From Chitinilyticum piscinae (GTDB lineage: Bacteria; Pseudomonadota; Gammaproteobacteria; Burkholderiales; Chitinibacteraceae), in the NCBI RefSeq assembly GCF_015223195.1, contig NZ_JADFUA010000003.1:124001-188000 (forward strand): a DNA stretch of 64,000 bases, given 5' to 3'. Shown piece after piece: positions 18,254 through 39,614 of the stretch. Each line of letters opens with the position of its first letter. The first letter of the stretch is position 1. A program made the position numbers and the translations under genes. Under the pieces are notes generated by a model that had not been told where the DNA came from, did no database searches, and saw nothing but the letters and a program-made list of their open reading frames with translations.

Positions 18254-18574
18254 TTGGCATTTCCGCAACAAGGCTCTGGTTGACAGGAGTGGGGGGATGA
18301 TAGCCGTTGCACGCCGCCAGCGGCAATGTTTCTCGGTGCGACGCAGCATGCGCGCCCGTAGCACTGACGCCGTCTGCACGAAAATGATCTTGGTTAAAAA
18401 AAAGCGATTTGACACAAACGCCGCCGGCATCCTCTGGCACAATCATCAGGGAATTCCCCCATAGCCGCAGCCCCAGGCCCGGCGCGGGTGAACAGGAGTG
18501 CCCGGAGCTGGCAGATGCCGGCTTTTTTTGACCGTGCGCGACGCACACGAAGACATCAGCGAAAGGTAGAGGGT
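18254..18574. promoter_or_regulatory. ppx / gltB1 divergent region with promoter and attenuator-like hairpin
   Basis: 321 bp without a gene. A consensus -35 hexamer TTGACA lies at 18409-18414 in the gltB1 direction, but no matching -10 is obvious at 16-18 bp. Closer to gltB1, 18506-18529 forms a 7-bp hairpin (one G-T pair) with an AGAT loop followed by seven T, which is an intrinsic-terminator shape inside the gltB1 leader. A GTG at 18488 is in frame with gltB1 but would run through this hairpin. Confidence 0.5.
18506..18529 (+). terminator. Terminator-like hairpin in gltB1 leader (possible attenuator)
   Basis: AGCTGGC-AGAT-GCCGGCT followed by a T-run, 45 nt upstream of the gltB1 ATG. No gene ends on this strand upstream, so it is placed to cut the gltB1 message short rather than to end another one. 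A competing antiterminator fold is possible with the GC-rich stretch at 18470-18490 but was not proven. Confidence 0.5.
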
Positions 18575-23218
<4,644 letters not shown>

Positions 23219-26972: not shown

Positions 26973-28883
26973 TTACACTTTGCGTTCCGCGGTAAACGGC
27001 CCGGTATAGCCATCAAGCGCCAGCTCCCGCAGCGTCTGCCATTCGGCCTCGCTGCGCACCAGTTCGGCATATACCTTGCAGCCCAGTGGCCTGGCCATGC
27101 CGAGCAAAGCCTTGATCAGTTGCTGGTTGCCGGCATGCGCATTGATATCGTGGATATAACTGCCGGCGATTTTCAGATACGCCAGTTGCAGGTCGTACAG
27201 CCGCGGCATACTGCCGATCTGACGACCGAAATGCTCGATGCCCACACGCACCCCCAGATGCTGCATCTCGGCGGCAAAGGTTGCCAGCGTCTCCTGGTCT
27301 TCGCTGAGCGCCTGTTCGGGCACTTCGAAGCAGAGACGCTGGCAATGCGTCGCAGGCACCCCCTGCAGCAAGCGCTGCAGCTCGCGGCGGAAGCCCAGGT
27401 CGTGCAGCGATTGCGGCGAGAGGTTGATGGCGATGTCTTCCGCACTGGCGAGCAGCTCCCGCACGCCAAGCCGCACGGCGGCCAGATCCAGCTGCGGCAA
27501 CAGGCCAAAACGGGCAGCAAAGGGGATGAAGGTGCCTGCCGGATAAAGTGCGCCGCTGGCCGGGTCAGCCAGGCGCAGCACCAGTTCGCGATGAACCCGG
27601 TGCCCGGCAAAATCCAGCACGTCGAAACTGGCCGCCGCAAACCCGTCAGTCGCAATTGCATCCTGCAACCACTCGCGCCATTGCTCGCTGGGCCTGCTGC
27701 TGCGGCGCCCGCTGGCGAGCGCGATGCGCAGCGGATTGGCCACATCACTCTCGGCCTGCACCAGCGCCGTGTCCGCCCGCGCCAGCAGACTGCCCACCGT
27801 ATCCCCCTGCTGGTAGTCACAGCACCCCAGACACAGCAGATCGGCGCGCTCGGGCAGCAGGGCCAGCACTTGCGCCAGCAGGTGGCGTGCGAACGGCTCA
27901 TCCGCCTCCTGCCCGGCGGCCAGCAGGGCAAAATCGGCACCATTCAGTCGTGCAGCCTGCCAGTTGTCCTGCTCATCAGCCAGCCCGGCCAGCGTTACCG
28001 CCAGCTCGGCCAGCAACCGATCCGTTGCCTGACGCCCCAGATCGCGATTCACTCCGGCCAGATCCTTCAGCCGCAGCAGATACAGCATTCCTTCGGGGCG
28101 GCTGTCCTCATCGCCCAGTTCACTGCTCAGGCGTCCAATGAAATAGGCGCGGTTTGCCAGCCCGGTTACCGGATCATGGTTCGCATCCTTCTCCAGCTGC
28201 TCGATCTGTGCCGACTGTTCCTCGAGCATGCCCTTCACCCGCTCGACCATGCTGTTCATGGCCGCAGCCATGGGGCGCAGTTCGACATAGGCTGGCATCG
28301 GCACATGAATGAAACGCCGTTCACTGATCGCCACTGCCTGCTGCATGATCTGCAGCATCGGCTGGCGCACGGCCCGCAGAACGAAGTGCATCAGCAAGCC
28401 GGTCAGTACTCCCCCCAGCAGCATCCAGAAAAACAGCCGTCTGGCGCCCTGCCACAGGGATTCATAGGCAAAACGGGAATGCGCGCGAATTTCCACCTTG
28501 CCAGCCTGTTTCCAGCCACTGCTGATCATGGCTTCGCCGGCTCTCACCGCAATCGGAAAGCGCGCGATGAACCACTGCGGCACCGCCTGCGGTAGCTCGC
28601 GATTGCGCAGATCCAGCAGGACCTTGCCCCGCGGGTCTTTGATCACGATCTGCTCGAAATGCCCGGAGTCGAACAGCGCATTGGTCGTCAGCGCCAGCAT
28701 TTCCGGATCCGCTGCATGCTGCGACAGCGACAGCGCCAGGGCGGTGGCATTGTCGCTGCTCTGCGTGTAGAGCTGCGTCTGCAGGTAGTCGCGGGCACTG
28801 TAGGTGCTGACTGACAACGCCACGATAAACGCGAGCAGCGCCGACCCGAGAATCATCAGCCAGACCTGCCTGAATAGTGACAT
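26973..28883 (-). CDS. lapD: LapD-type c-di-GMP receptor (degenerate GGDEF-EAL)
   Basis: Inner-membrane receptor that, when bound to c-di-GMP, holds the protease LapG in the periplasm and so keeps surface adhesins attached. The 636-residue protein opens MSLFRQVWLMILGSALLAF, has a periplasmic output domain between two membrane helices (about residues 6-26 and 150-172), and a HAMP linker. The GGDEF domain signature is NGADF (residues 314-318), and the EAL domain reads ELVLRL where EAL is expected. Loss of both catalytic motifs is what LapD proteins show. The ATG 28883 with GGGAG upstream is preferred to 28994. It lies 13 bp after lapG. Confidence 0.9.
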   Translation of the reverse strand: MSLFRQVWLMILGSALLAFIVALSVSTYSARDYLQTQLYTQSSDNATALALSLSQHAADPEMLALTTNALFDSGHFEQIVIKDPRGKVLLDLRNRELPQAVPQWFIARFPIAVRAGEAMISSGWKQAGKVEIRAHSRFAYESLWQGARRLFFWMLLGGVLTGLLMHFVLRAVRQPMLQIMQQAVAISERRFIHVPMPAYVELRPMAAAMNSMVERVKGMLEEQSAQIEQLEKDANHDPVTGLANRAYFIGRLSSELGDEDSRPEGMLYLLRLKDLAGVNRDLGRQATDRLLAELAVTLAGLADEQDNWQAARLNGADFALLAAGQEADEPFARHLLAQVLALLPERADLLCLGCCDYQQGDTVGSLLARADTALVQAESDVANPLRIALASGRRSSRPSEQWREWLQDAIATDGFAAASFDVLDFAGHRVHRELVLRLADPASGALYPAGTFIPFAARFGLLPQLDLAAVRLGVRELLASAEDIAINLSPQSLHDLGFRRELQRLLQGVPATHCQRLCFEVPEQALSEDQETLATFAAEMQHLGVRVGIEHFGRQIGSMPRLYDLQLAYLKIAGSYIHDINAHAGNQQLIKALLGMARPLGCKVYAELVRSEAEWQTLRELALDGYTGPFTAERKV

Positions 28884-28896
28884 GCTTGGAATCTCC

Positions 28897-29580
28897 CTAG
28901 AAAACGATGCCGTCGCTCTGCATGCGCAGCAACACGTCTTTCCAGCGGGAAAGACGGTCGACCGATGCCGATGGCTGGGTGCCCGCGCCGGCAAAAATGC
29001 CTTCGCTGCTGAAACTGAAAACCGGAACCAGATCCGGGCGGCGACTGGCCGGGCGGATTTCGTTGATCAGATTGTCGAGCACCAGCGGCTCGGCATCCGG
29101 GGACGGGTAATAGGTCAGCACCATGTGCGCTTGCGTGACACTGCTGCCACTGCCGCCAATCCGCGCCTTGACGTAGCTGAGCCGCAACTTTTCCGCGCTG
29201 ATTCCCAGTTCCTTGAGCGCAAAATACTTGATGATGGTGAAGTCTTCGCAGTCTCCGGCGCCCTTGCCGATCATTTCCAGCGGCGTGGCCCAGTAATCCG
29301 CCTCTTTCCAGAGCGCGCTATCGTCCTGGAACTGCAGGCGGCGATTAAAAAAATCGTTCACCCAGCGCAGCTTGTCCTGCTCGGACTGATTGCGGGCGCC
29401 TGCCAGCATCTGCTGCGTATCTGCCAGCAGCCGCGCCGCCGTCGCCCCGTAGCGTTGCTGCGCGAGCCGCAGCAGCTTATCGAAATCCCAGCCGGCGCGC
29501 GCAGGCAGATACAACAGTGTCGTGCCCAGCAGCACCACCAGCACGACCCGCCACCATCCTGATCGAATCCGCTCCGCCAC
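28897..29580 (-). CDS. lapG: LapG-type periplasmic cysteine protease
   Basis: Transglutaminase-like cysteine protease (DUF920/peptidase C93) that clips the N-terminus of giant adhesins and releases the cell from surfaces when c-di-GMP falls. The 227-residue protein has a signal or anchor segment ([19 protein letters not shown]) and the catalytic triad Cys111 (GAGDCEDF), His152 (TQAHMVL) and Asp169 (LVLDN). It starts with GTG at 29580, with GGAGG upstream. It is co-transcribed with lapD. No LapA-like adhesin or LapBCE exporter is in the window, so the substrate must be encoded elsewhere. Confidence 0.9.
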
Positions 29581-29901
29581 GCCTTCGGCGCCCCTCCGCG
29601 AGTAACAGTCAGGCCGGATGACAATACCGGCCGCAATCCACTGTATCCCAGCCGGATGTGCGCGACAAATCCCGGATCAGTCCGGCGCCGGCGGGAAGCC
29701 GGCAGCGCATGGCTAACCACACCGCTTTGCACAGCAAAATCAGGGGGATTTCGCAACCCTGACAAGTGCGAAAGCCTGTTGCAACAAGGGTCTAGGGTTT
29801 TTCCCGATTGCCCGGCCAAGGGGATTTCCGGTTGCGAATTAGCACCTGAAACAGATAGAATCAAGCCCTTTCGCTTGATTTTCCGCAAGGGTGTCTCAGA
29901 A
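29581..29901. promoter_or_regulatory. lapG / gltB2 divergent control region
   Basis: 321 bp without a gene. In the gltB2 direction a plausible sigma-70 promoter is TTGCGA (29832-29837), 18 bp, TAGAAT (29856-29861). A perfect inverted repeat TCAAGC-CCTTTC-GCTTGA at 29861-29878 overlaps the expected transcription start, where an operator or leader hairpin would act. On the lapG side no promoter stands out. Confidence 0.5.
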
Positions 29902-35810
<5,909 letters not shown>

Positions 35811-35821
35811 GCCATTCCACT

Positions 35822-35853
35822 GCAAAAAGCCCCGCCCTGGCGGGGCTTTTTGC
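35822..35853 (+). terminator. gltB2D2 terminator
   Basis: GCAAAAAGCCCCGCC and its exact complement around a 2-nt centre, a 15-bp stem with five T on its 3' side, 12 bp after the gltD2 stop. Confidence 0.93.
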
Positions 35854-35906: not shown

Positions 35907-37466
35907 ATGTATATCAAAAGAATGCCAAGCAAGACCCCATATCTTGCAGCGCAACGCCATCCGGCGCATGATGCATCCTTGCCGCCCGAACAGCACCCCA
36001 TGATGAATGCGCAGCACCCCTCTACCCCGCACGCGGAAAGCGGCTTTGCGGCCCTGCTTGGCGAAGCCCGGCACGCTTTCGAACGGGGGGACACGGTCAA
36101 GCCACTCCTGACCAAAGCCACCAGAGTCGCCCGTGATCCGGTACAGCTGGCGCAGCTGGCACTGTTGCGCGGCGAGCTACTACTGCGCGAGGGGCAGCGT
36201 ACTCGCGCCCTGCATTGCTGGCTGGATGCCCAACAGCAGGCCCAGCTTGCCTGCCACTTCCGGCTGATGTCCCAATCCTGGCAACTTATCGCCAGCTGGC
36301 ACTTGCTGGCCGGCCAGGCCGGTACGGCGCTGCGGCTGGCCAGCCATGCGCTGGACCTGGCCCGGCAGGCAGCCAGCCGCCCCCTGCAGGCCCGCTGCCT
36401 GCTGACACTGGCTCGTGCAGCCTACCAGCAGGGAGACACAGTCACCGGCCAGATTGCCCAGCAGCATGCCATCCGCCTACAGGCACAGGACACGAGCAGC
36501 GTCGACCCCGGCTGGCATCAGGAGCTGGCCGAGCTGTACTGGCAAACTGGACAATTTGATGCTGCCCGCGACGTCCTTGAACAACTACTGCCGGTGCTGG
36601 TCAATCAGGCCAGACAGGCCGTGCTGCTCCGGCTGGGGAGAATTGCGCTGGCGACCGGCGATCACATGGCGGCGCTGACCCTGCTGGAAGAAGCCGACCG
36701 CAGCGGCAGCGTGACACCGGATCCGGACCGGCACGCACTGAAAGATGCGCTAGTCAGCGCACTGGCACAGAACGGCCGCACCGCCGATGCCGTGGCACTG
36801 CTGCTGCAGACCCGTGCCCAGCGCCAGAAGCCGCGCCGCCGCACCCGCGAACAGACGCGACTGGCGGCGCTGGAACTCAAGCTGCAGCTACTGACCTCCG
36901 AGCTGGAAGTCGCACAGCTGCGCCGTGAAGCGGAAGCCGAGCGGCAGAAGCTGCAGCTGCTGGAAACCGGAGCCTATCGTGATCCGCTGACCGGCCTGCC
37001 GAATCGCAGCTACCTCAACGAACGCCTGCCGGAATTGCTGGCCGCGGTGAGCGAAGGGCTGCCACTGAGCCTGCTGCTGATCGATTGCGACCAGCTGAAG
37101 GAGCACCGGGAGCGCTTCGGCGACGAAACCGCGGAACGGATTCTGGCTACCGTGGCGAACTTCCTAGCAGACAGCTATAGCGACACTGCTATACTGGCCC
37201 GCCATGACCAGCAGACTTTCATTCTGCTGCTGCAGGGCATTCCGCCGGCCACGGCGCTCCGGCTGGCCGGCCAGATCCGCCAGCGCATTGCTGGCAGCGA
37301 CTGGGGCGGCATTGCGCCGGGGCTGGCCCTGACCGTCAGCATCGGCCACGCGGCAGCCCATGCCGATGACACCATGGATATTCTGTTGCTGCGTGCCGAT
37401 CTGGCCATTTTCCTGGCACGCCGCCAGGGGGGCAACTGCGTGGCCGACGGAGACGAAACACCATGA
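35907..37466 (+). CDS. TPR protein with degenerate GGDEF domain
   Basis: A 519-residue cytoplasmic protein: TPR-like helical repeats (about residues 60-330), a charged coiled coil (RLAALELKLQLLTSELEVAQLRREAEAERQ), then a GGDEF-type fold from about residue 363 (DPLTGLPNRSYLNERLP, LLLIDCDQLKEHRERFGDETAERIL). The GGDEF signature is replaced by DQQTF at 434-438 (ARHDQQTFILLL), so diguanylate cyclase activity is not expected and a receptor or scaffold role is likely. The start ATG 35907 has AGGA 11 nt upstream; 36001 is an alternative. It overlaps the next TPR gene by ATGA. Confidence 0.75.
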   Translation: MYIKRMPSKTPYLAAQRHPAHDASLPPEQHPMMNAQHPSTPHAESGFAALLGEARHAFERGDTVKPLLTKATRVARDPVQLAQLALLRGELLLREGQRTRALHCWLDAQQQAQLACHFRLMSQSWQLIASWHLLAGQAGTALRLASHALDLARQAASRPLQARCLLTLARAAYQQGDTVTGQIAQQHAIRLQAQDTSSVDPGWHQELAELYWQTGQFDAARDVLEQLLPVLVNQARQAVLLRLGRIALATGDHMAALTLLEEADRSGSVTPDPDRHALKDALVSALAQNGRTADAVALLLQTRAQRQKPRRRTREQTRLAALELKLQLLTSELEVAQLRREAEAERQKLQLLETGAYRDPLTGLPNRSYLNERLPELLAAVSEGLPLSLLLIDCDQLKEHRERFGDETAERILATVANFLADSYSDTAILARHDQQTFILLLQGIPPATALRLAGQIRQRIAGSDWGGIAPGLALTVSIGHAAAHADDTMDILLLRADLAIFLARRQGGNCVADGDETP

Positions 37467-38542
37467 TGGACCCGGTAGCACTGCTGCAGGCCGAGCTTTC
37501 CCCGCTGGCACGCGAAGCCGCTCATGGCTCACCCAAAAGTCCGCGGATCATCGAGGCATTACTGGTCAGAGCCCGCCAGCTGGATTATCAGCCCCTGGAG
37601 GCCCTGGCCCTGGTCACGCTCGGGCATGCCTGGCAGCATGTCGGCAAAGCTCGCCAGGCACATCAGGCATTCCGGCGTGCGGCCGAGCTCTACCACCAGC
37701 TCGGTGATGGGCACGCCCGCATCGAGGCGCTGGTCGAGCTAGGGCGCTCGCATTATGCGTTCGGTGATCCGGCTCGGGCGCTGGCGATCTGGTCACGCAC
37801 CCTGGAGCTGGCTCGTGGCAGCCACGACATGCGCAATTGCGCGCGCATCTGTCTGGGTGTCGGGCAGCTGTATGTCGCGCAGGGAGATCACCCGCGCTCG
37901 CTGCGCTATCACGAGCTGGCACTCAGCCTGGCACGACCACTGGGGGAAGAACACCTCTGTTGCGAGGCACTGCTCAATGTGGCTGGCGATGCATACCGCT
38001 GCCGCGATTTCACCCGGGCGCAGGACGCGCTGGCCGAAGCCGAACGCCTGCTGGCCGGCCCGGTGCAGAACCGCGTCTGGTCAGCCGAAGTGGTCAACTA
38101 TCGCGGCCTCATCCACTACGAGCAGGGCGAATACCGTACGGCCGTGGCAACGCTGGACGTGGCCTTCACCCTGCATGACAACAACGACAATCTCTGGGGA
38201 CGCGGGCACGCGCTGTTTGCCCTGGGCAAGGCACATCTGGCGCTGGAGGAGCTCGGTGCCGCGCACGACTGCTTCGCCGCCGCGCTGGACATGGCACAGC
38301 AGGGAAAACTGGGCAGCCTCATCATCCAGTGCGCCGAGCAGCTTGCCACCATGGCACTGGAGGCCGCGGATCACCGCAGTGCATTGCAATACCTGAGGCT
38401 GAGCGAAGCACTGGAACAAGGACAGCCGGAACACGCGATAAGACTACGGCCGCTCGCCGCCCCGCTGCGCCAGAAGCTGGATGAACTCGAAGCCGGCAGC
38501 CGCACGGCCCTGCTGCACCGGCAGCTCTTGCTCGCCGGCTAG
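37463..38542 (+). CDS. TPR-repeat protein, coupled to degenerate GGDEF gene
   Basis: A 359-residue soluble protein built almost wholly of tetratricopeptide-like helix pairs (ALVTLGHAWQHVGKARQAHQAFRRAAELYHQLGD, ALVELGRSHYAFGDPARALAIWSRTLELA, and others). The start ATG overlaps the stop of the preceding gene as ATGA, implying coupled translation and probably a physical complex. It has no enzymatic domain. It resembles the convergent TPR protein at 38553-39614 in length, repeat order and wording, which suggests paralogy. TPR arrays of this kind commonly precede GGDEF domains, so it may be a cyclase sensor half without an output domain; that is inference. Confidence 0.72.
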   Translation: MMDPVALLQAELSPLAREAAHGSPKSPRIIEALLVRARQLDYQPLEALALVTLGHAWQHVGKARQAHQAFRRAAELYHQLGDGHARIEALVELGRSHYAFGDPARALAIWSRTLELARGSHDMRNCARICLGVGQLYVAQGDHPRSLRYHELALSLARPLGEEHLCCEALLNVAGDAYRCRDFTRAQDALAEAERLLAGPVQNRVWSAEVVNYRGLIHYEQGEYRTAVATLDVAFTLHDNNDNLWGRGHALFALGKAHLALEELGAAHDCFAAALDMAQQGKLGSLIIQCAEQLATMALEAADHRSALQYLRLSEALEQGQPEHAIRLRPLAAPLRQKLDELEAGSRTALLHRQLLLAG

Positions 38543-38552
38543 CGGGGTAATT

Positions 38553-39614
38553 TCAGCAGCCAGCCAGCCGCGCTTCGCGCGCCAGAAACTCCCGCCCGAG
38601 CTCATCAGCCAGCATCAGGACCCGATGCTGGCGGGCCTCCTGCTCGATCCGCCCCTGCAACAGACTCGAGCGCTGGCGGAATAGCTCGGCCTGCTCGGGG
38701 CGCCCGGACAGCAGTGCATAGGTTGCCGCCTGCGCGGTCAGCCGCGCTTCGAGCTGGCGCAAACCATCGCTGCGGGCGATCAGCAGTGCCCGCTGGATGG
38801 TATCCAGGGCCTGCGGCAAGAGGTTCTGCCGGAACTGAACCTCGGCCAGTGTACCCAGCACATTGACCTCGCCCCAGTGGTAAGGCGTATCCAGCAGGAT
38901 ATCCAGTGCCCGCTCCAGCAACAGCTGCGCCGCTTCCGGCGGCTCGCCGGCATGCAGCAGCAGTTCGGCCTGTCGCCAGAGCGTTTCCGCCTCATGATGG
39001 GGAAAGCCATGCTGGCGACAGAGCGCAAGCGCGCTATCCAGACAGGTGCCGGCCTCGGCAAAGCGCGCCAGCCGGATCAGATTAGTGCCCAGATTGATAC
39101 GGATGGCGGCCAGGACGAAGGGATCATCCAGCAGCTGCGCCACCCGGTCGGCCAGCTGATGCAGCTCGACCGCACGGGCTGGCTGGCCAAATGCATCGCA
39201 GATCTGCCCCAGCCCCAGCAGCGCACGCGCCTTGCAGCCCTGCAAGTCCGGCGCGTCGGCAGCCAGACGCACCGATTTTTCCCAGGCAGCCAGAGCCTGC
39301 GGATAGTGCCCGCGGGTGTAATTGCAACGGCCGATCTGCTCCAGCACCTCTGCCTCCCACGCCGCAAGGCCATGCGGTGCCAGCAGGGCCAGCGCCTCCT
39401 CGAGCAGCGTGAGGGCCTGGCCGGTTTCACCAAGCTGATCCTCGATATAGGACAATTTCAGTGCAGTCTGGACAAAGGCGGCGTGATCGTGGCCGCGCAC
39501 ATGCGTCAGCAGAGCCACACAGGCATCGCGGGCGGCAGCGGGACGGGTAAACAGGATGGCATCAATCGCATGCAGACGGGCCGCGTGCGCGTCAGAAGTA
39601 GCGGGCTGGCTCAT
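38553..39614 (-). CDS. TPR-repeat protein, convergent paralog
   Basis: A 353-residue soluble TPR protein: TALKLSYIEDQLGETGQALTLLEEALALL, EVLEQIGRCNYTRGHYPQALAAWEKSVRLA, LLGLGQICDAFGQPARAVELHQLAD, and a helical tail RQRSSLLQGRIEQEARQHRVLMLADELGREFL. It converges on the TPR gene at 37463 with a 10-bp gap, and the two appear homologous over most of their length. Start ATG 39614, no clear ribosome site. Role unknown; the local cluster suggests a regulatory assembly around the degenerate GGDEF protein. Confidence 0.7.
   Translation of the reverse strand: MSQPATSDAHAARLHAIDAILFTRPAAARDACVALLTHVRGHDHAAFVQTALKLSYIEDQLGETGQALTLLEEALALLAPHGLAAWEAEVLEQIGRCNYTRGHYPQALAAWEKSVRLAADAPDLQGCKARALLGLGQICDAFGQPARAVELHQLADRVAQLLDDPFVLAAIRINLGTNLIRLARFAEAGTCLDSALALCRQHGFPHHEAETLWRQAELLLHAGEPPEAAQLLLERALDILLDTPYHWGEVNVLGTLAEVQFRQNLLPQALDTIQRALLIARSDGLRQLEARLTAQAATYALLSGRPEQAELFRQRSSLLQGRIEQEARQHRVLMLADELGREFLAREARLAGC

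Follow-up and report, generated by a model that had tools for sequence, protein, structure and literature searches.

Putatively dead cyclases form a lineage within the rcbBA-like gene pairs of Chitinibacteraceae

The window analysed here, a 64,000-nucleotide stretch of Chitinilyticum piscinae DNA (contig NZ_JADFUA010000003.1, positions 124,001 to 188,000), contains two overlapping genes, open reading frames 1 and 2 (ORF1 and ORF2), which by sequence are an rcbBA-like pair: ORF1 encodes a protein with tetratricopeptide repeats (TPRs) and a GGDEF domain, and ORF2 its TPR-only partner. The pair type itself is already known; what is new is a dead-cyclase lineage within it. We read ORF1-ORF2 as an rcbBA-like module whose cyclase subunit has been turned into a pseudo-diguanylate cyclase that selection retains, so that the pair would form a cyclase-free regulatory complex, a reading to which we give an even chance.

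An overlapping gene pair with a degenerate GGDEF domain

ORF1 (35907..37466, + strand, 519 aa, rcbB-like, start codon uncertain) comprises a TPR array, a long helix and a GGDEF fold that lacks the catalytic residues, and is followed directly by the co-directional ORF2 (37463..38542, + strand, 359 aa), whose ATG at 37463 overlaps the ORF1 TGA at 37464–37466 as ATGA. A third gene, ORF3 (38553..39614, − strand, 353 aa), is TPR-only, belongs to another TPR family and converges on ORF2 across a gap of 10 bp (38543–38552); it is a neighbour that probably lies outside the pair. A preliminary description of the locus had reported three TPR proteins packed at 35907–39614, the ATGA overlap and the 10-bp convergent gap, all of which are present in the sequence, with Pfam TPR models matched in all three proteins. 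Pfam GGDEF was matched in ORF1 at aa 356–510 (89.5 bits, E 2.6e-25), and neither an EAL nor a PilZ domain was found by Pfam in ORF1–ORF3.

Residues were called from one hidden Markov model alignment of 70 TPR-GGDEF domains, using the PleD numbering (N335, D344) and residue roles. In place of GG(D/E)EF, ORF1 reads DQQTF (37206..37220, + strand, aa 434–438), as had been described; besides this signature, N335 is replaced by R and D344 by E, and the RxxD position of the inhibition site (I-site; 37179..37190, + strand) reads SDTA, all of which upholds the earlier statement that ORF1 cannot be a normal cyclase. ORF1 still has the first metal Asp and the Lys. Judged by its residues, ORF1 would be neither an active diguanylate cyclase, which carries GG(D/E)EF with metal and GTP residues, nor an I-site-type receptor of cyclic di-GMP (c-di-GMP), which carries RxxD.

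An AlphaFold2 model of ORF1, built from 18 aligned orthologs, contained 14 TPR-like helices (7 TPR pairs, aa 41–307) and a 43-residue helix (314–356) leading into a GGDEF fold. Mean predicted local distance difference test (pLDDT) was 84.2, falling below 50 over aa 1–40, and the predicted template modelling score (pTM) of 0.52 leaves the relative placement of the arms uncertain. The linker helix (36849..36974, + strand, approximately aa 315–356) is the most conserved stretch in most ortholog pairs. SiaD and PleD headed the Foldseek matches to ORF1, and the SadC GGDEF domain (4wxw) aligned with a template modelling (TM) score of 0.92 by target length and a root mean square deviation of 1.5. The model of ORF2 (mean pLDDT 91.8) had 16 TPR helices (8 pairs) and a C-terminal helix of 26 residues; LGN-type TPR domains were its top Foldseek matches, with MalT and Rap proteins lower. 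Both proteins are probably cytoplasmic, as expected of an RcbAB-type module, on the evidence of hydropathy only (top 19-residue means 1.61 for ORF1 and 1.05 for ORF2; the MarC-like membrane protein reaches 2.41).

The pair is conserved across the family

Orthologs were sought in genomes of the Chitinibacteraceae, including the own genome (3.65 Mb) and one other Chitinilyticum. Loci were picked by ORF2 similarity, among the matches listed, or by a TPR-GGDEF profile at E ≤ 1e-60, a choice that leaves weaker relatives uncounted and favours pairs reachable through the TPR partner. Of the 37 family genomes surveyed, 26 had an ORF1-ORF2 ortholog pair among the matches listed; in each of the other 11 the best match to ORF2 fell outside the orthologs of the pair. 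ORF2 adjoined ORF1 in 26/26 pairs; its start overlapped the ORF1 stop in 24 (as ATGA, TGATG or TAATG) and lay 0 or 1 base past it in two Andreprevotia. Thirteen pairs sat between gltB/gltD and marC (Chitinilyticum 2, Chitinibacter 6, Deefgea 5), and the other 13 elsewhere. Synteny in relatives, which the preliminary description had set as a test, is thus found for ORF1-ORF2 but not for ORF3, which accompanies the pair only in Chitinilyticum.

Wider searches returned little. A scan of genome contigs with ORF1 gave no relative, and a class-wide search with an ORF2 profile matched 4/369 genomes, the own genome included, at E ≤ 1e-10; in the stretches read from the other three there was no GGDEF match. 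A plasmid search with ORF2 yielded 19 records, no Vibrio among them.

Dead orthologs are grouped and under constraint

Orthologs were called live or dead on the signature, the first metal Asp and N335. By this measure 19 of the 26 ORF1 orthologs, from five genera, were dead (Chitinilyticum 2/2, Chitinibacter 6/6, Deefgea 5/5, Iodobacter 3/3, Jeongeupia 3/3) and seven were live (Chitinolyticbacter 2, Chitiniphilus 3, Andreprevotia 2), one of these last seven reading SGEEF and lacking the Lys. RxxD and N335 were missing from all 19 dead orthologs and the metal Asp from 17, while the linker and a C-terminal RADLAxxLAxR motif were retained.

When 70 TPR-GGDEF proteins were placed in a tree, the dead orthologs all fell on one side of a branch with a Shimodaira–Hasegawa-like approximate likelihood ratio (SH-aLRT) support of 95, and the same dead-pair taxa clustered weakly (81/68) in a tree of ORF2. 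A single loss of catalysis is the simplest history suggested by these trees, although not a proven one because long branches may attract; dead branches did evolve faster in the tree of 70 proteins. The census of loci read held 110 distinct full TPR+GGDEF frames (26 ORF1 orthologs and 84 others), and all 84 outside the ORF1 orthologs were live. A same-strand TPR neighbour was found by script beside 19/19 dead and 87/91 live frames, the 91 including the seven live ORF1 orthologs. Three of the four exceptions (L063, L068 and L106) do have a partner, its frame extending far upstream, and the fourth (L207, at 1303; 393 aa) has a weak, 87-bit GGDEF match and is probably not a TPR protein.

Ratios of non-synonymous to synonymous change (dN/dS) were obtained from Nei–Gojobori counts, in which dS was mostly near or above 1 and only the comparison of L074 with L077 (dS 0.24) was clear of saturation. 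Within ORF1, dN/dS between the two Chitinilyticum genomes was 0.61 in the TPR arm, 0.19 in the linker and 0.24 in the dead GGDEF domain, and ORF2 gave 0.26; five further dead pairs gave 0.061, 0.092, 0.074 and 0.090 for the dead GGDEF domain, with one saturated. The GGDEF domain was more identical than the TPR arm in 11/11 dead pairs and 5/5 live pairs. These counts place the dead domain under purifying selection.

Relation to RcbAB and to live paralogs

The preliminary description knew of no system with this layout. That claim fails: rcbAB of Vibrio vulnificus, described in 2025, combines a TPR-only or TPR-plus partner, RcbA, with a TPR-GGDEF protein, RcbB, and makes c-di-GMP, and homologs are listed in Chitinibacteraceae, the gene order being reversed in Jeongeupia and in some Chitinibacter (PMC12282931). 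RcbA binds RcbB via the TPRs of both; the TPRs of RcbB repress its own cyclase, and RcbA uses both of its parts to relieve the repression. RcbA self-associates independently of its TPRs, RcbB showed no self-interaction in two-hybrid assays, and almost all RcbA homologs, like most of those of RcbB, have 7 TPRs (PMC12282931). The portion of that text available makes no mention of degenerate RcbB homologs, using 'degenerate' twice and neither time about RcbB. A literature search covering few subscription journals found no other paper on an RcbA/RcbB-type pair and none on dead-GGDEF heterodimers; PMC7577485, considered as a possible precedent, proved irrelevant in the part available.

For comparison, the Vibrio loci L169–L172, reached by searching with the partner protein of a different pair, were taken as rcbAB by homology and layout, not by a match to V. 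vulnificus itself. Like rcbAB, ORF1-ORF2 consists of two overlapping genes for a TPR protein and a TPR-GGDEF protein, neither with a predicted membrane segment; ORF1 has 7 predicted TPR pairs, as in RcbB (ORF2 has 8), and shares 30% identity over 197 aa of linker and GGDEF with a Vibrio RcbB homolog. It differs in its order, rcbB-rcbA; in the GGDEF domain of ORF1, dead (DQQTF, N335R, D344E) where that of RcbB is competent; in the modelled end of ORF2, a short helix where RcbA has a structured C-terminal region; and in the weak similarity of ORF2 to a Vibrio RcbA homolog (22% over 200 aa), ORF2 matching the TPRs of RcbB equally well.

Closer relatives are the other rcbBA/rcbAB pairs of Chitinibacteraceae, in the own genome and elsewhere, which are of the same pair family with adjacent genes and the same domain order but whose TPR-GGDEF frames, as far as the census of 84 full ones goes, are live. 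The own genome has five further pairs, all reading GGEEF: L087 (contig C11, beside a PTS enzyme I-like gene), L088 (contig C3), L173 (contig C4, its partner carrying a degenerate GGDEF domain of 50.5 bits in Pfam), L181 (contig C23) and L182 (contig C18). Live TPR-GGDEF paralogs were present in 16 of the 19 genomes having a dead pair. A Jeongeupia locus (L137, 2414–5874) holds two TPR-only genes whose counterparts in other genera lie upstream of live TPR-GGDEF genes; there was no GGDEF gene in the stretch read.

Degenerate GGDEF domains on partner subunits

In the census, 11 live cyclases also had an upstream partner with a degenerate GGDEF domain. Seven long Chitinibacteraceae partners were compared with Pfam; four (L173, L174, L179 and L139) passed the GGDEF cutoff and one (L180) fell below it. 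The C-terminal region of RcbA, which helps activate RcbB, is described as of unknown function (PMC12282931). Aligned with hhalign to a GGDEF profile, the C-terminal 170 residues of the four Vibrio RcbA homologs scored 40.7 (probability 84%, 51 columns), against 22.6 for the best of 200 column shuffles and 21.1 for the best segment of the window's proteins, excluding ORF1 and a LapD-like protein, both of which have GGDEF domains. The partners in two Chitinilyticum live pairs, L182 and L183, form a bridge, RcbA matching them at 95.2% and they matching GGDEF at 95.1%. These profile comparisons suggest that the RcbA C-terminus is a strongly degenerate GGDEF domain. Four results count against such an assignment: L182 and L183 show no Pfam GGDEF, two Vibrio RcbA homologs show none at E up to 10, one of the four Vibrio sequences taken singly scores 20.0, which is noise level, and RcbA has no direct match to the L173–L177/L179 partners (0.8%).

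What the pair may do

The preliminary description had proposed a signalling scaffold with TPR arms and a dead cyclase domain on separate subunits. The conserved, overlapping ORF1-ORF2 pair fits separate TPR and pseudo-cyclase subunits; the inclusion of ORF3 in the same unit is not supported. ORF1 and ORF2 would form a TPR-TPR complex, in which the dead GGDEF domain and the long helix could provide a surface for dimerisation or docking, and the complex would act without c-di-GMP synthesis. Its simplest action may be on the paralogous pairs of the same cell, whose live TPR-GGDEF proteins it would pair with, titrate or position.

Several observations weigh against this rcbBA-like regulatory module. 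The interaction, localisation and binding of ORF1-ORF2 are predictions, and ORF2 lacks the RcbA C-terminal domain. In V. vulnificus an RcbB GGDEF mutant is inactive (PMC12282931), so catalysis is what counts there. The fast TPR arm of ORF1 between the Chitinilyticum species (dN/dS 0.61) is odd for a fixed TPR-TPR interface. Finally, no live TPR-GGDEF paralog was detected in the three Jeongeupia genomes at E ≤ 1e-60, and therefore control of such paralogs cannot be universal.

More tentatively, dead GGDEF domains may be a functional component of TPR/TPR-GGDEF complexes in general, carried by the partner (Vibrio RcbA, L173, L174) or, in the ORF1 lineage, by the former enzyme. ORF1-ORF2 would then be a module without an enzyme, regulating live cyclases or other targets through contacts between GGDEF domains and between TPRs, independently of any nucleotide.

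A pure scaffold, in which ORF1-ORF2 positions another client, perhaps at the cell pole, independently of c-di-GMP, and the GGDEF domain is a re-used binding surface, is possible though rather unlikely. Catalytic and I-site residues are lost with fold, linker and partner retained, Jeongeupia keeps the dead pair with no live paralog detected at the threshold above, and RcbA and RcbB are polar proteins (PMC12282931), all of which this alternative would accommodate; the same-architecture live paralogs of the other 16 dead-pair genomes are, however, expectable interactors.

ORF1 might also be a receptor that binds c-di-GMP, GTP or another nucleotide and signals to ORF2. PopA, PelD, LapD and CsrD are degenerate GGDEF receptors or partners, PopA and PelD binding c-di-GMP via the I-site and LapD via its EAL domain. 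PopA and PelD thereby offer a precedent. ORF1, too, has a predicted GGDEF fold without cyclase activity, and its first metal Asp and Lys remain; but it has neither an I-site nor an EAL domain, PilZ is likewise absent from ORF1–ORF3, and the dead orthologs have lost N335 throughout and the metal Asp nearly so. The I-site form of this reading was rejected on the absence of RxxD in 19/19 dead orthologs, and nucleotide reception as a whole is improbable.

Equally little probability attaches to a three-part complex with ORF3 as a further TPR arm of the ORF1-ORF2 machine. The compact layout is kept in both Chitinilyticum genomes, between which ORF3 is constrained (dN 0.28, dS 1.0), and ORF3 is homologous to ORF2 (28% over 244 aa). 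Its paralogy with ORF2, as first described, therefore holds as a distant relationship and not as a recent duplication, since ORF3 is much closer to other proteins than to ORF2; a recent copy of ORF2 was rejected. ORF3 lies on the opposite strand and stands beside the pair in just 2/26 genomes, on which ground it was rejected as a subunit, and no GGDEF gene was adjacent to its closest relatives in the seven other loci read (L091, L093–L098). Some of these relatives lie near gltD: in two Chitinolyticbacter between gltD and marC, and in two Andreprevotia close to gltD.

Decay, with ORF1 a cyclase in the course of being lost, would suit the accelerated evolution on dead branches and the 11/37 genomes in which, among the matches listed, the pair was not found, but it was rejected on dN/dS and retention, with dead-domain ratios well below 1, a constrained ORF2 and open frames in 19/19 dead orthologs of five genera, and we hold it very improbable indeed.

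Surroundings of the locus

The three genes are flanked by gltB-gltD-like genes on one side and by marC-rpiA-phoU-like genes on the other. The gltD-marC interval is a site of TPR genes in the family: Chitinibacter and Deefgea carry ORF1-ORF2 there, Chitinilyticum both kinds, and Chitinolyticbacter two tandem ORF3-like genes (L093, 6093–8323; L094, 6795–9011). The own genome also encodes an 820-aa TPR-GAF-histidine kinase (L092, 6196–8658) whose TPR arm resembles ORF3, and frames of approximately 800–830 aa with similar TPRs recur across Chitinibacteraceae.

A terminator-like stem lies 3′ of gltD (35834–35846), such stems totalling no more than chance expectation, and a promoter scan of the locus was uninformative. 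The window contains two glutamate synthase large-subunit genes (18488–23218 and 29656–34335), approximately 6 kb apart. A second degenerate GGDEF protein, of known kind, is encoded less than 10 kb from ORF1: the LapD-like protein (26973–29580, − strand) with LapD_MoxY_N, a GGDEF domain reading NGADF, and EAL, overlapped on its upstream side by a Peptidase_C93 (LapG-like) gene.

Implications

If ORF1-ORF2 is indeed such a module, a second-messenger enzyme would have been turned into a long-kept non-enzyme regulator within an operon type described only in 2025. Live and dead orthologs within one family, as in Andreprevotia and Chitinilyticum, offer a natural experiment for telling apart the enzymatic and scaffolding roles of a GGDEF protein.

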